From positions 1 through 34,595 of IMG/VR virus record IMGVR_UViG_3300028794_000184: 34,595 bases of DNA, one strand, 5' to 3'. This stretch comes from a virus. Of this stretch, positions 2,463 through 8,480 are shown one piece after another. The notes beneath the pieces were generated by a model. It was not told where the DNA came from. It searched no databases and was given only the letters and a program-made list of their open reading frames with translations. How positions within the stretch are numbered: the first letter of the stretch is position 1; each line of letters opens with the position of its first letter. Position numbers and translations under genes: made by a program.

Positions 2463-2604
2463 AGTGAGGTGGCGCAATGGTAAGACGCTGATAAACCGCT
2501 GGGGAGTACATAATCACTGCTGAAGGGCTCCAATTAATGTTTATCAATAACTGTAAGGACGCAGGGAGTAACAGGTAATGCAGGTTCGAATCCTGCCCTC
2601 ACTA
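2463..2604 (+). ncRNA. tRNA-like RNA with enlarged anticodon-side arm
   Basis: The ends fold as a tRNA. Acceptor strands AGTGAGG (2463-2469) and CCTCACT (2597-2603) pair over 7 bp, with A2604 as discriminator and no encoded CCA. The T-arm is GCAGG / loop TTCGAAT / CCTGC (2580-2596) with the invariant TTC and A58 positions. The D-arm is GCG(C)...(A)CGC at 2472-2475 and 2485-2488, with GG in its loop (2479-2480). Between D- and T-arms lie 91 bases instead of about 20-40. GATAAAC (2490-2496) pairs perfectly with GTTTATC (2539-2545), closing a 42-base domain that may hold a GGAG/CTCC stem. A weak CTGT/ACAG hairpin (2551-2554/2571-2574) sits in the variable-arm position. No ordinary anticodon loop is visible. 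It fills the gap between transposase and MuB-like genes and should be co-transcribed. An intron-bearing or degenerate tRNA are alternatives. Confidence 0.7.
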
Positions 2605-2636
2605 CAGAACTTTTTAAAACATAAACTAACTACACG

Positions 2637-3509
2637 ATGACAACGATTATTGACTCTCAGAAAAAGGAAATTCAAATGCTGCTGAAATCTTTCATTGAGC
2701 AGTACGCAAGCCAGGCGAAGGCAGTTGCCGCGCTGAAAAATGTAAGTGAGGCGACCGTGATTAACATAAGGCGCGGAGATTGGGAAAGCATTAGCGATGA
2801 CATGTGGCGCAATGTGGGCAAGCAAGTGGGCCTGAATGAAAAGAGCAAATGGAAGTTTATCGAGACCACACCAGCACGCAAGCTTATCGATTTTCTGGAT
2901 GATGCTCGGGAGTATGGAAATGTATTCTCTATCACAGCTGATCCTGGAACCGGTAAATCATTTGTAAGTGAATGGTATGAAAACAAACGGCCCAATGTAT
3001 ACACGGTGAGCTGCTCCGAGTATTTCAACCGCAAGGTATTCCTTCAACAGATACTTGAAAAGATGGGCAAGACGAACACTGGATTATCGGTGCCCGAAAT
3101 GATGGACGTGATTGTTGAAACATCACTAAAGAAGGAAAGTCCTTTGCTGATTTTAGACGAGTTCGATAAAGTATCTGATTCGATCCTATACTTCTTCATC
3201 ACCTTATATAATAGACTGGAAGGAAACATGGGTATCGTAATCATGGCTACCGACTACCTGGCGAAACGCATCATGCGCGGACGCAAGATGAACAAGAAAG
3301 GATATGCGGAGATCTTCAGCCGGATAGGCCGCAGGTTTATTACCCTGCCCCCGCCAACAGAGAAAGAAGTGTTCGATATAGCCAAAGCCAACGGGGTAGA
3401 GAATCCGCAGGATCTACACTCTATATATAATGAGTGCGAAGGGGACTTGCGTAGGGTAAAACGTGCGATCCACAAAAGCCGGATGAAGGCGATGAAAAAA
3501 GCCGCTTAA
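2637..3509 (+). CDS. MuB-like AAA+ target-binding ATPase
   Basis: This 290-aa protein matches the MuB / transposition-ATPase family. MuB coats target DNA, activates the transposase and gives target immunity. Residues about 15-60 form a helix-turn-helix-like N-terminus (SQAKAVAALKNVSEATVINI), as in MuB. The AAA+ core carries Walker A DPGTGKS (residues 102-108, Lys107) and Walker B LLILDEFD (Asp174, Glu175). A sensor-like stretch (GIVIMATDYLAKR) and a probable arginine-finger region (FSRIGRRF) follow. Length is close to MuB (312 aa). It follows the transposase gene after the tRNA-like RNA, the expected A-B order. Confidence 0.92.
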   Translation: MTTIIDSQKKEIQMLLKSFIEQYASQAKAVAALKNVSEATVINIRRGDWESISDDMWRNVGKQVGLNEKSKWKFIETTPARKLIDFLDDAREYGNVFSITADPGTGKSFVSEWYENKRPNVYTVSCSEYFNRKVFLQQILEKMGKTNTGLSVPEMMDVIVETSLKKESPLLILDEFDKVSDSILYFFITLYNRLEGNMGIVIMATDYLAKRIMRGRKMNKKGYAEIFSRIGRRFITLPPPTEKEVFDIAKANGVENPQDLHSIYNECEGDLRRVKRAIHKSRMKAMKKAA

Positions 3510-4576: not shown

Positions 4577-5176
4577 ATGACAAAAACAAGAATCAAAAAA
4601 ACAGTAATTGAAGAAGTTACACATGAAGAAGCTGTCCAAGCTTTTGCTGAGTTAGCCGCAGCTGATGCTGAAACAAAAAGAATAACAGCCGAAATGGATT
4701 TAGAGATGACGAAAATCAGGATGATATATCAGGATGATCTTGAAGCAAATGCAAAAATTGTTCGGGAGAAATTCGATTTACTTCAGGCATTCTTAAAACT
4801 TCATCCTGAAGTGCTTGGCGATAAACGTAGTGTTGAGCTAACACACGGCACAATCGGGTATAGACTTGGCCAGCCAGCGTTGAAAACTTTAAAGGGATTT
4901 ACCTGGGGAGCCTGCAAAAAGCTTGTAACTGAATTTATCTCTGAGGACTATATAAGAGAAAAAACAGAGATTGATAAAGAAAGTCTTTTGGCTAATCGTG
5001 ATCGATTAGTGACAGAAGTTCTCATTTATGATGAAACTGATCCGATATGGCAAACGCCAGAAGAAGATCGGCCATCGTTTTCAAGCCTATTTGAGAAGTG
5101 CGGTTTTAAGGTAGAACAGGACGACACTTTTTATGTCGTGCCTAAGAAAGAAGAAGCACTTCAAACTACATTATAA
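4577..5176 (+). CDS. gam: Host-nuclease inhibitor Gam-like protein
   Basis: This 199-aa protein fits the Mu Gam family, which binds double-stranded DNA ends as a Ku-like dimer and shields them from host exonucleases. It shows the family's long N-terminal helical hairpin (about residues 15-75, KRITAEMDLEMTKIRMIY) followed by the Gam core around residues 80-110 (KRSVELTHGTIGYRLGQPALK), which is characteristic. The C-terminus (about 120-199) extends beyond Mu Gam with a Glu/Asp-rich stretch. Position in the early operon after the transposition genes agrees. It is followed by an unusual 326-base gene-free block. Confidence 0.9.
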   Translation: MTKTRIKKTVIEEVTHEEAVQAFAELAAADAETKRITAEMDLEMTKIRMIYQDDLEANAKIVREKFDLLQAFLKLHPEVLGDKRSVELTHGTIGYRLGQPALKTLKGFTWGACKKLVTEFISEDYIREKTEIDKESLLANRDRLVTEVLIYDETDPIWQTPEEDRPSFSSLFEKCGFKVEQDDTFYVVPKKEEALQTTL

Positions 5177-5502
5177 GGGAGATTCGGTTAGACCCTTCCC
5201 CTTGTCGGGGGCAGAGAGGCAAAGGATTCTAACTTTTATGGCACATCCCTTGGCGTCTGGTTCTGAAACCAGAGTTGCAGATAAGTGCTGATTAGTATGA
5301 ATAAACCCGCCCGGATCTGGTAACAAACATTAGCGGGAATCCTTTGTAAAGACTATACCAAACCATTTAACCCTTCTCTTTTTGAGAGGGGTTAAGGTTC
5401 GGTGAATAATGAGAAAACACAGGGCTATTCGACCTGAAAGTTTCGAATAAGTGGGGGGCTTTTACCCCTCTATCTACCCACACACACACACTATTATATC
5501 CG
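5177..5502 (+). ncRNA. Gene-free structured block downstream of gam
   Basis: No convincing gene lies here; the longest ATG frame inside the main fold is 17 codons from 5238. The block is rich in paired elements. CAAAGGATTC (5220-5229) pairs with GAATCCTTTG (5337-5346) over 10 bp. Inside it are TGGCAC/GTGCTG (5239-5244/5285-5290, with wobbles), TCTGGTT/AACCAGA (5256-5262/5267-5273) and CCGC/GCGG (5307-5310/5333-5336). Downstream are a 12-bp hairpin with a T5 loop (5367-5395, one G-U), a TATTCGA/TCGAATA hairpin (5426-5432/5443-5449) and a GGGG/CCCC hairpin near 5454-5468. A CA repeat (5481-5490) ends the block. This looks like a structured RNA or long leader. Family unknown to me. Confidence 0.6.
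5367..5395 (+). other. Strong 12-bp hairpin with T5 loop
   Basis: TTAACCCTTCTC and GAGAGGGGTTAA pair over 12 bp with one wobble and a TTTTT loop. The hairpin is not followed by a T-run, so a standard intrinsic terminator is unlikely on the + strand. It could be an RNA stability element, a processing site or an inverted-repeat operator. It sits immediately downstream of the multi-branched fold at 5220-5346. Confidence 0.7.
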
Positions 5503-6232: not shown

Positions 6233-6416
6233 AAAATGTTACTGGCCGAAATGTCATGCTGTAGGTTGTACTAATCGGGAATGCAAAGCAGATGAGTTTG
6301 CAGCGGAAAACGAGCGCATGGATAAACGCTTTGTTGAGGGGGTATTACTCAGCATTGCATTAACTATTGCCTTGGCGGCAATCATCGGATTCATATTAAT
6401 TATCTGGCCTGTTTAA
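6222..6416 (+). CDS. Small membrane protein with Cys-rich N-terminus, 64 aa
   Basis: I chose the ATG at 6222, which overlaps the preceding stop by 11 bases. An in-frame ATG at 6192 would give 74 aa with a longer overlap. The N-terminus has four cysteines in MRIKKCYWPKCHAVGCTNREC, possibly a small metal site. A charged helix follows (FAAENERMDKRF), then one strong C-terminal transmembrane helix (LLSIALTIALAAIIGFILII). It is a tail-anchored protein by layout, probably with the Cys-rich part in the cytoplasm. Function unknown. Confidence 0.55.
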   Translation: MRIKKCYWPKCHAVGCTNRECKADEFAAENERMDKRFVEGVLLSIALTIALAAIIGFILIIWPV

Positions 6417-6428
6417 AAAAAAATATAA

Positions 6429-7268
6429 ATGGCAAGGGTACTCGGATTAAAACAACTGCTAAGCAAGAAGTATAATTTCCTGGAAGGACTACCGGATGAG
6501 ATTACGCACTGCTTCGGCCGACTGGTGAATAACTTCATCATGATCATTTGGGGGAATAGTGGCAACGGCAAAAGTAGCTTCCTGATGAGCTTTATTAAAG
6601 TGCTTATGCCGTTTGGCAAAATTCTTTATGTGGCATTGGAGGAAGGATTTGAAGCGACCACGCAAATGAATGCACTTCGAAGCCTGAACGAAGATGAACA
6701 CAGTGGCAAGATTGAGTTTGCCGATTGCGATATGAATTACGATGAACTTGTAAAGAAGCTGAAGAAAAAGAAATCGCCACGCTTCATTATCATAGACAGC
6801 GTTCAGTATTGGGACATCACTTATAAAAAGTATAAGGATTTGAAGCAGATGTTTAAGAATAAGACATTCATTTTTATCAGCCATGCTACAAATAAGGAAC
6901 CAAGGGGAACAGTTGCGGACAGCATACGCTATGATGCTGGAATAAAAGCGCGCGTGGAAGGCTTTATGGTAGATGTAAAAAGTCGCTATGGAGGAAACAA
7001 CCCTTATGTGATTTGGGAGGAAGGCGCGGAAAAGTATTGGGGTAAAAATTATCGCACTGCTATAAGCGGAGCAAAAGAGACTAAGAAAAAGAAACCTAAA
7101 CCAACCTTAAAAAAGACAGATGAGGTACTACAACAAATACACCCGGCTGAGTCATTGGCAGAACCCAGAGAATCATTTTTGGGAGAACGACAAGTGGACG
7201 GAGACAGCGAAAGAATATTATCGGAATTGGTTGGCAACCATGCTGAAAACGTCACAGAAGATTTATAA
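6429..7268 (+). CDS. RecA-like P-loop ATPase, 279 aa
   Basis: Walker A reads WGNSGNGKSS (residues 41-50, Lys48, Ser49). A strand with a glutamate (LYVALEEGFE, 66-74) resembles the second catalytic region of RecA/RadA-type ATPases. Walker B is RFIIIDSVQ (Asp123), followed by a sensor strand FIFISHATN. The C-terminus after about residue 215 is Lys-rich and then acidic, likely disordered. The family resembles phage RecA/DnaB-fold (AAA_25-type) ATPases, which remodel DNA or load helicase. It is distinct from MuB and is a second early-operon ATPase. Exact role is inference: replication or recombination support. Confidence 0.75.
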   Translation: MARVLGLKQLLSKKYNFLEGLPDEITHCFGRLVNNFIMIIWGNSGNGKSSFLMSFIKVLMPFGKILYVALEEGFEATTQMNALRSLNEDEHSGKIEFADCDMNYDELVKKLKKKKSPRFIIIDSVQYWDITYKKYKDLKQMFKNKTFIFISHATNKEPRGTVADSIRYDAGIKARVEGFMVDVKSRYGGNNPYVIWEEGAEKYWGKNYRTAISGAKETKKKKPKPTLKKTDEVLQQIHPAESLAEPRESFLGERQVDGDSERILSELVGNHAENVTEDL

Positions 7269-7295
7269 GCTTCAAAAATCATAAAGAAAAAAACT

Positions 7296-7757
7296 ATGAA
7301 ATCAGTACTTCAAGATTGGGTAATGGAATTACCTCTAAGAGAGCAAGGAACTTTATTAACATGTGTTAGAGGCTGTGATGATGAGCCTAAGACATGGACA
7401 AGAACAGGTGTAGCTTATTCGCCAGGCAGAAGATTAACTGCTTTTATTCGTTGGTGTTTTATGGTACCTGCGGATGTTCGTGAGGTTGATTCGGAAGAAG
7501 GTGCCTTTATGATGAGCGATCCGCCAATGCCATTTAAGCCTTCAGAGTTCGGCCATCTTCCGCAGCATTGGTATAGCCATGCAATGCACGCTTTAGAGGT
7601 TATTGGGTATTGTCACCCCGATCAGGAGACAAGAAGTACGGCATTCATGCTTTACAGAAAAATGGTTTTCAATATGCACCTGAACATTGAGGAATCACAC
7701 GAAATGATTCAAAGATTATCAGAAGATCGTTTGTTAAACAACACTGTAGTTTCATAA
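7296..7757 (+). CDS. Hypothetical protein, 153 aa
   Basis: Not recognised. The sequence starts with a helical LQDWVMELPLREQGTLLTCVRGCDDEP segment containing two Cys six residues apart. The middle is compact and aromatic (LTAFIRWCFMVPADVREVDSEE), and HLPQHWYSHAMHALEVIGYCHPD is His-rich. The His/Cys pattern could bind metal but matches no motif I can name. Its TAA (7755-7757) shares its last base with the next ATG, so the two genes are coupled. Confidence 0.65.
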   Translation: MKSVLQDWVMELPLREQGTLLTCVRGCDDEPKTWTRTGVAYSPGRRLTAFIRWCFMVPADVREVDSEEGAFMMSDPPMPFKPSEFGHLPQHWYSHAMHALEVIGYCHPDQETRSTAFMLYRKMVFNMHLNIEESHEMIQRLSEDRLLNNTVVS

Positions 7758-8188
7758 TGAATAAGTACATCATTACATCACCGGCCTTTACTGGCGAAAT
7801 AAACGTGCTGTACGGATTGGATAACAAACTGCTGTACATCGATTTTTTAAAGTGCGATTTGAGCCAGGAGCAAACGGACTATTTCAAAAGCAAGTTGCCT
7901 GCCCTCTATAGTGATCCGCTGGTAGAAGCTTTTGGCAAATCCCGACTGACCGTAATTAAGGAGGGCTACCAGGTAAGTTTTGAACAATGGTGGAACCGCT
8001 ACAACCTGAAGCGTAACCGGCTGCGTGCCGAAAAACATTGGCAGAAGCTAAGTGAAGCCGATAGGGTGAATGCCTTTTTTAAAATCGGCATGTACGAAAG
8101 GCACCTGGCGCTTAACGCATGGAAGACCAAAGCAGACCCGGAGACTTATTTGAAGAGCAGATATTGGGATAATGATTGGACGAAGTAA
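7757..8188 (+). CDS. Hypothetical replication-region protein, 143 aa
   Basis: ATG at 7757 overlaps the previous stop by one base. The C-terminal half carries the pattern SFEQWWNRYNLKRNRLRAEK, then HWQKLSEADR, then DPETYLKSRYWDNDW. Its Trp/basic/Trp layout recurs at the C-termini of phage replication-associated and DNA-binding proteins. The N-terminus is strand-rich (YIITSPAFTGEINVLYG). DNA binding is therefore plausible but not shown. It lies between the RecA-like ATPase and the gp16-like gene. Confidence 0.6.
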   Translation: MNKYIITSPAFTGEINVLYGLDNKLLYIDFLKCDLSQEQTDYFKSKLPALYSDPLVEAFGKSRLTVIKEGYQVSFEQWWNRYNLKRNRLRAEKHWQKLSEADRVNAFFKIGMYERHLALNAWKTKADPETYLKSRYWDNDWTK

Positions 8189-8192
8189 ATCT

Positions 8193-8480
8193 ATGAGAAT
8201 GGACAACTATTACAATTGGGAGAAGATGGGTTTACAGTACATAGTTTACCTAATGGTAAAATGGTTTCTCTATGATACTGTTAATATTGAAACCATTGGT
8301 AGAGTAGATGTTGAATCAGGAATATGGATTACGATCACAGTTAAAAAGGAGGATAAAGAATGGTTAATAAGTGGTCAAAGAGTTGATGTAGTTCATAGAA
8401 GATTGATTGAGTTTTTAGATAGTCAAAACATTAGACAAGATTATAAACAGAAACGCGATGAGTCAGATAAGCCTACTTAA
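8193..8480 (+). CDS. Hypothetical protein, 95 aa
   Basis: I prefer the ATG at 8193, just after the previous stop. An in-frame ATG at 8172 would add seven residues and overlap the upstream gene by 17 bases. The protein has a Trp/Tyr-rich N-terminus (MDNYYNWEKMGLQYIVYLMVKWF), a beta-rich centre (WITITVKKEDKEWLISGQ) and a charged tail. It is AT-rich compared with its neighbours, a possible sign of separate origin. No function assigned. Confidence 0.55.
   Translation: MRMDNYYNWEKMGLQYIVYLMVKWFLYDTVNIETIGRVDVESGIWITITVKKEDKEWLISGQRVDVVHRRLIEFLDSQNIRQDYKQKRDESDKPT

Follow-up and report, generated by a model that had tools for sequence, protein, structure and literature searches.

A tRNA-Leu-like RNA without an anticodon arm between the MuA and MuB genes of a Mu-like phage, and similar RNAs in other phages

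The MuA-MuB interval and its tRNA-like element

The window, by which we mean the whole 34,595-nucleotide stretch that was analysed, is a 34.6-kb virus record that gene content and Pfam matches assign to a Mu-like phage. The closest relatives of this phage are contigs in which MuB identity reaches 81%, together with a prophage-like locus of Chryseosolibacter indicus. A MuA-like transposase gene and a MuB-like ATPase gene, the latter with a tblastn match to the 'Mu B-like transposase' of Bacteroides phages, flank a 142-nt element with the following layout:

502-2454, + strand: MuA-like transposase gene (Pfam Mu-transpos_C, 4.4e-6; ORF list), upstream neighbour of the element
2463-2604, + strand: 142-nt RNA resembling tRNA-Leu but lacking an anticodon arm (RF00005, 32.9 bits; plan common to 86 distinct elements, the window's included)
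2463-2469, + strand: acceptor stem 5' strand AGTGAGG, pairing 7/7 by Watson-Crick with 2597-2603
2472-2488, + strand: Leu-type D-arm GCGCAATGGTAAGACGC, containing GG (best tRNA fits for the 5' half are tRNA-Leu)
2489-2546, + strand: 8-bp helix TGATAAAC/GTTTATCA closing a 42-nt domain where a tRNA would have its anticodon arm (from sequence and MFE)
2547-2579, + strand: 33-nt stretch 5' of the T-arm with the 3' end AT, a tail typical of the family (45/86)
2580-2596, + strand: T-arm GCAGG TTCGAAT CCTGC (RF00005 alignment)
2597-2604, + strand: acceptor 3' strand CCTCACT (2597-2603) and discriminator A2604 (RF00005 alignment; A73 in 70/86 family members)
2605-2636, + strand: A-rich MuB leader, 32 nt, with a spacing equal to hairpin-to-ATG in relatives
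2637-3509, + strand: MuB-like ATPase gene (Pfam AAA_22, 7.3e-16), downstream neighbour of the element
4577-5176: Mu Gam-like gene (window ORFs/Pfam)

The initial annotation had described a tRNA-like RNA with a 7-bp acceptor, a D-arm with GG, a TTCGAAT T-arm, a 91-nt centre and a 7-bp helix around a 42-nt domain, and each of these parts was found in place. The D-arm and T-arm are separated by 91 nt. The central helix, GATAAAC (2490-2496) with GTTTATC (2539-2545), encloses exactly 42 nt, and the pair T2489-A2546 lengthens it to 8 bp. A second GCAGG is likewise present at 2561-2565, but we found no evidence for its proposed competition with the T-stem.

Positions 2463-2604 score 32.9 bits with the tRNA model RF00005, whose gathering score is 29 (cmscan; E = 6.5e-7 for the record); this is the sole match in an Rfam scan of the window. 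Given a score above the gathering cut-off, the tRNA resemblance is not due to chance. ARAGORN at default settings reports neither tRNA nor tmRNA for the element and, with introns allowed, proposes a poor tRNA-Pro(ggg) that lacks U33 and has a mismatched stem. Among 40 tRNAs from the host genome of a relative, those for leucine fit the 5' half of the element best. No intact anticodon arm (5-bp stem, 7-nt loop, U33) was found in the 91-nt centre and none is restored by any single deletion, making a simple intron unlikely. This, with a plan common to dozens of phage RNAs, supports the earlier view of a tRNA-derived RNA that would not decode. Folding of the full-length RNA is predicted to be no more stable than that of shuffled sequences (z = -0.42), so the case depends on the tRNA signature and the family rather than on folding energy.

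Two known classes were considered and excluded. For YrlA, the RF02553 covariance model found nothing in 2380-2680 at E values up to 10, and the Ro60-binding stem GCGTAG.TGAGAG.TTACTTC had 0 matches in the window with up to three mismatches allowed. For tmRNA, ARAGORN -m returned nothing on the element, hence no tag-bearing prediction, and no tmRNA family appeared in the Rfam scans.

Farther downstream, the Gam-like gene is followed by a conserved RNA of ~170-300 nt (window 5177-5480; L004 6086-6400; L007 5743-6027; L001 8190-8520; L002 8180-8590), which has no Rfam match in the scan of the window and contains a covarying helix: CAAAGGATT/AATCCTTTG, CAATAGAT/ATCTATTG, CAGAAGAT/ATCTTCTG and CAGCAGAT/ATCTGCTG. 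The closest relative, L004, also carries a reverse transcriptase (Pfam RVT_1) at 6435-8420, downstream of ORFs with repeated GGSSGFR, an arrangement resembling a diversity-generating retroelement. Two further related phages have an initiator-like tRNA-Met(CAT) gene directly 3' of an endolysin-like gene (L020 1501-1574; L021 1501-1575).

The same slot in Mu-like relatives

In the MuA-MuB gap of about 80 Mu-like relatives, the tRNA-like element was found in none, and a search of 13 related records over their whole length gave no clear copy outside the gap. The expectation that related Mu-like phages would conserve it in the same gap was thus not borne out; conservation appears in other phages instead. 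Its presence in one phage among these relatives indicates that the element is not essential there.

In nearer relatives the gap holds a short GC hairpin, 3-9 nt after the MuA stop, with 28-35 nt, once 49 nt, from hairpin end to MuB start where folding is clean. The window element lies 8 nt from the MuA stop and 32 nt from the MuB ATG. The hairpin is seen in L001, L004, L005, L008, L009, L056, L058, L059 and L060, with loops mostly of six bases, position kept and sequence varied. In this phage the tRNA-like RNA thus stands in for an intercistronic stem-loop. Because the element occupies this slot, processing of the MuA-MuB message by it, as initially proposed, is plausible.

A partial likeness occurs elsewhere in L004, in another intergenic region and within the post-Gam RNA, where a T-arm and acceptor form a minihelix, AGTGAGT..GCTCACTACCA, at 6306-6348. 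L004 6301-6347 resembles the 3' part of the 33-nt stretch at window 2547-2579, and the 3' part of the minihelix aligns with window 2559-2606 (17.9 bits, E 0.057); we regard the likeness as suggestive only.

Similar RNAs in other phages

IMG/VR contigs were searched for a Leu-type D-arm separated by 78-107 nt from a T-loop, with the acceptor unconstrained, which yielded at least 120 stretches. Among the matches listed, 76 of 80 places examined held no ordinary tRNA by ARAGORN, and the acceptor pairs 7/7 in 53 of 75 distinct loci picked irrespective of the acceptor, with 32 different acceptors. All four Watson-Crick pair types occur at six of the seven acceptor positions in those 75 loci, and 86% of acceptor cells are paired; randomly reassigning the 3' strands to loci lowers this to 56%, with 62% as the highest value in 200 shuffles. 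These comparisons show that the predicted family is under pressure to keep its acceptor pairing, with many compensatory changes. A second pattern, AGTGAGG plus a Leu-type D-arm, added 16 stretches, with 0 ordinary tRNAs by ARAGORN. Because the patterns demanded a Leu-type D-arm, its frequency in the family reflects the search design, and members framed on other kinds of tRNA may exist.

A rule-based search over all loci, filtered for acceptor pairing, gave at least 86 distinct elements. The window's was retrieved by the same rule as at least 85 others: a 7-bp acceptor, a Leu-type D-arm, a T-arm, a 45-145-nt centre, no anticodon arm and mostly A73. Among the matches listed, A73 occurs in 70 of 86 elements and the next base is C in 78 of 86, both outside the search pattern; CCA is encoded in 3 of 86, and 20 of 86 have an ordinary tRNA gene no more than 300 nt away. 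Among the matches listed, 34 of 80 elements are followed within 45 nt by the start of an ORF, where 18 would be expected at random positions. At least eight contigs each carry two to four elements with differing centres, and the window's acceptor, AGTGAGG/CCTCACT, recurs in eight other family elements. Bacteroides phage BF1-TP2 (record PQ571263), cultured on B. fragilis, has one element, at about 2493-2610 of L322, which reads GGTGGTA, TGGCGAAATTGGTAGACGC, centre, GCGGG TTCGAGT CCCGC, TACCATC, A. Several family RNAs of 100-158 nt gave RF00005 as their sole Rfam match. A search of open-access full text found no report of such RNAs. With more than 80 similar RNAs in other phages, the window element appears to belong to a widespread phage RNA family that as yet has no name.

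The family centres, 45-145 nt long, are hypervariable. Among the matches listed, 29 of 72 elements with 60-100-nt centres contain a helix with six or more Watson-Crick pairs and a 3' strand that stops 0-3 nt short of the T-stem (about 5.6 expected); of the 43 helices with five or more pairs, 25 stop 2 nt short of it, the commonest distance. Not all of these elements are independent, as some share one subfamily (L181, L200, L239, L279, L308), in which GATAAC/GTTATC crosses GGTTA/TAACC in a predicted pseudoknot; in L279 both helix sides are changed, to GGTAAC/GTTACC. Cellulophaga phages have a counterpart, GAATAA/TTATTC, from which the tRNA frame is absent; this frameless core was rejected as an explanation of the window, being confined to one subfamily. 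The window centre differs from the others: its 8-bp helix adjoins the D-arm, and tail-helix candidates are weak. With 34 nt separating the GATAAAC/GTTTATC helix from the T-arm and no strong tail helix, the window element is a divergent member, which counts against the family reading. We found no homologue of the window centre, leaving its structure without covariation support.

A generic long-gap tRNA pattern run on 297 Bacteroidota genomes produced 11 matches, most of them overlapping or adjoining tRNA genes that ARAGORN calls as ordinary. A match to a B. finegoldii record turned out to be two ordinary tRNA-Leu genes. In two Bacteroidota genomes (L326, L327), a tRNA-Leu frame has a long hairpin replacing the anticodon arm, plus a variable arm. 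A different pattern found RNAs in L014 (812-938, - strand, with neighbours at 680-702 and 1014-1036) in which the YrlA motif GTTGCGTAG.TGAGAG.TACTTC replaces the anticodon arm; these have normal tRNA order (D-arm, T-arm, CCA) and a non-Leu frame, and resemble an unpermuted Y RNA.

Interpretation and comparison with known RNAs

The predicted structure shows acceptor, D and T arms retained and the anticodon arm swapped for another domain, in the intercistronic MuA-MuB slot. We give an about even chance to the reading that the segment is a tRNA-Leu-framed, non-decoding phage RNA, a divergent member of a widespread family, excised by host tRNA enzymes and with a functional centre. RNase P and host 3' tRNA-processing enzymes would cut at 2463 and after 2604, dividing the transcript into separate transposase and MuB messages and freeing a stable 142-nt RNA, with the tRNA frame stabilising the excised product. 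As CCA is not encoded in the element, it would come from the host. LeuRS recognises A73 and the tRNA core independently of the anticodon, and leucine charging of the window RNA is therefore possible. The variable centre would hold the specific function, for example RNA or protein binding.

An intron-bearing tRNA-Leu gene, spliced to give a decoding tRNA, would share the Leu-type frame, and ARAGORN offers a candidate once introns are allowed; moreover, group I introns occur in bacterial tRNA-Leu genes. The initial annotation had itself named a normal or intron-bearing tRNA as an outcome that would count against it, yet the exons give no canonical tRNA after a single deletion, and in the window no deletion creates an anticodon arm of 5 bp that includes U33. 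Across the family, recovery of the arm stays at shuffle level, one deletion yielding a perfect anticodon arm in 5 of 72 elements where shuffles give 2-5 (single-deletion model only). With centres much smaller than group I introns and no Rfam intron match, splicing is a highly improbable account. A decaying phage tRNA gene or pseudogene, functionless and disrupted by an insertion, would fit the restriction to a single phage among about 80 Mu-like relatives, the ordinary tRNA genes elsewhere in related phages and the hypervariable centre. Decay sits poorly, however, with the intactness of every stem, the compensatory acceptor changes across the family, the multiple copies in a phage and a position exactly in the relatives' hairpin slot, and we judge it quite unlikely.

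The retained frame and lost decoding part could also be those of a mimic that occupies host tRNA-handling proteins (LeuRS, EF-Tu, PNPase, anticodon nucleases), whether YrlA-like or as a defence decoy. YrlA has been proposed to inhibit an anticodon nuclease (PMC7790460), which counts for such mimicry, as does phage L014, with YrlA-type stems at the equivalent place of the tRNA frame. The YrlA motif is nevertheless absent from the window, no Ro60 gene was recognised among the part of the window's ORFs that was read, and neither evidence for a decoy role nor a link with a defence system was found; mimicry of this kind seems unlikely.

Returning to the excised, non-decoding RNA, we can extend it to a broader proposal for which we would claim somewhat less than even chances: that phages, seemingly for the most part those of Bacteroidota, harbour a large family of tRNA-Leu-shaped RNAs no longer able to decode, with several per phage, and that host tRNA enzymes excise, stabilise and perhaps leucylate their interchangeable pseudoknotted domains. 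If the family is real and expressed, it would be a common phage RNA class missed by ordinary annotation, because tRNA finders discard such RNAs or label them as generic tRNA. It would also provide a natural example of the tRNA frame as a carrier of non-decoding RNA domains, and a comparison case for tmRNA and Y RNA. The element in a cultured B. fragilis phage makes the family testable at once.

Among known systems, tRNA-Leu (class II, RF00005) shares the acceptor, Leu-type D-arm, T-arm and discriminator A with the window RNA; its centre is ~33 nt with an anticodon arm, as opposed to 91 nt without one. Genes for tRNAs with group I introns likewise have a frame interrupted mid-way, but the window RNA has no recoverable anticodon arm, a far smaller insert and no Rfam intron match. 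In tmRNA (SsrA), tRNA-like ends flank a large, partly pseudoknotted centre and the anticodon is absent; the window RNA is far smaller, has a proper D-stem and contains no recognised tag frame. YrlA (RF02553) is, like the window RNA, noncoding, with tRNA-like D, T and acceptor parts and another domain replacing the anticodon arm, but its parts are circularly permuted and it carries a conserved stem that binds Ro60, whereas the window RNA keeps the normal tRNA order and has no such motif. Thus, tRNA frames with other domains are already known from YrlA and tmRNA, and the window RNA would be a variant of tRNA-like noncoding RNA.
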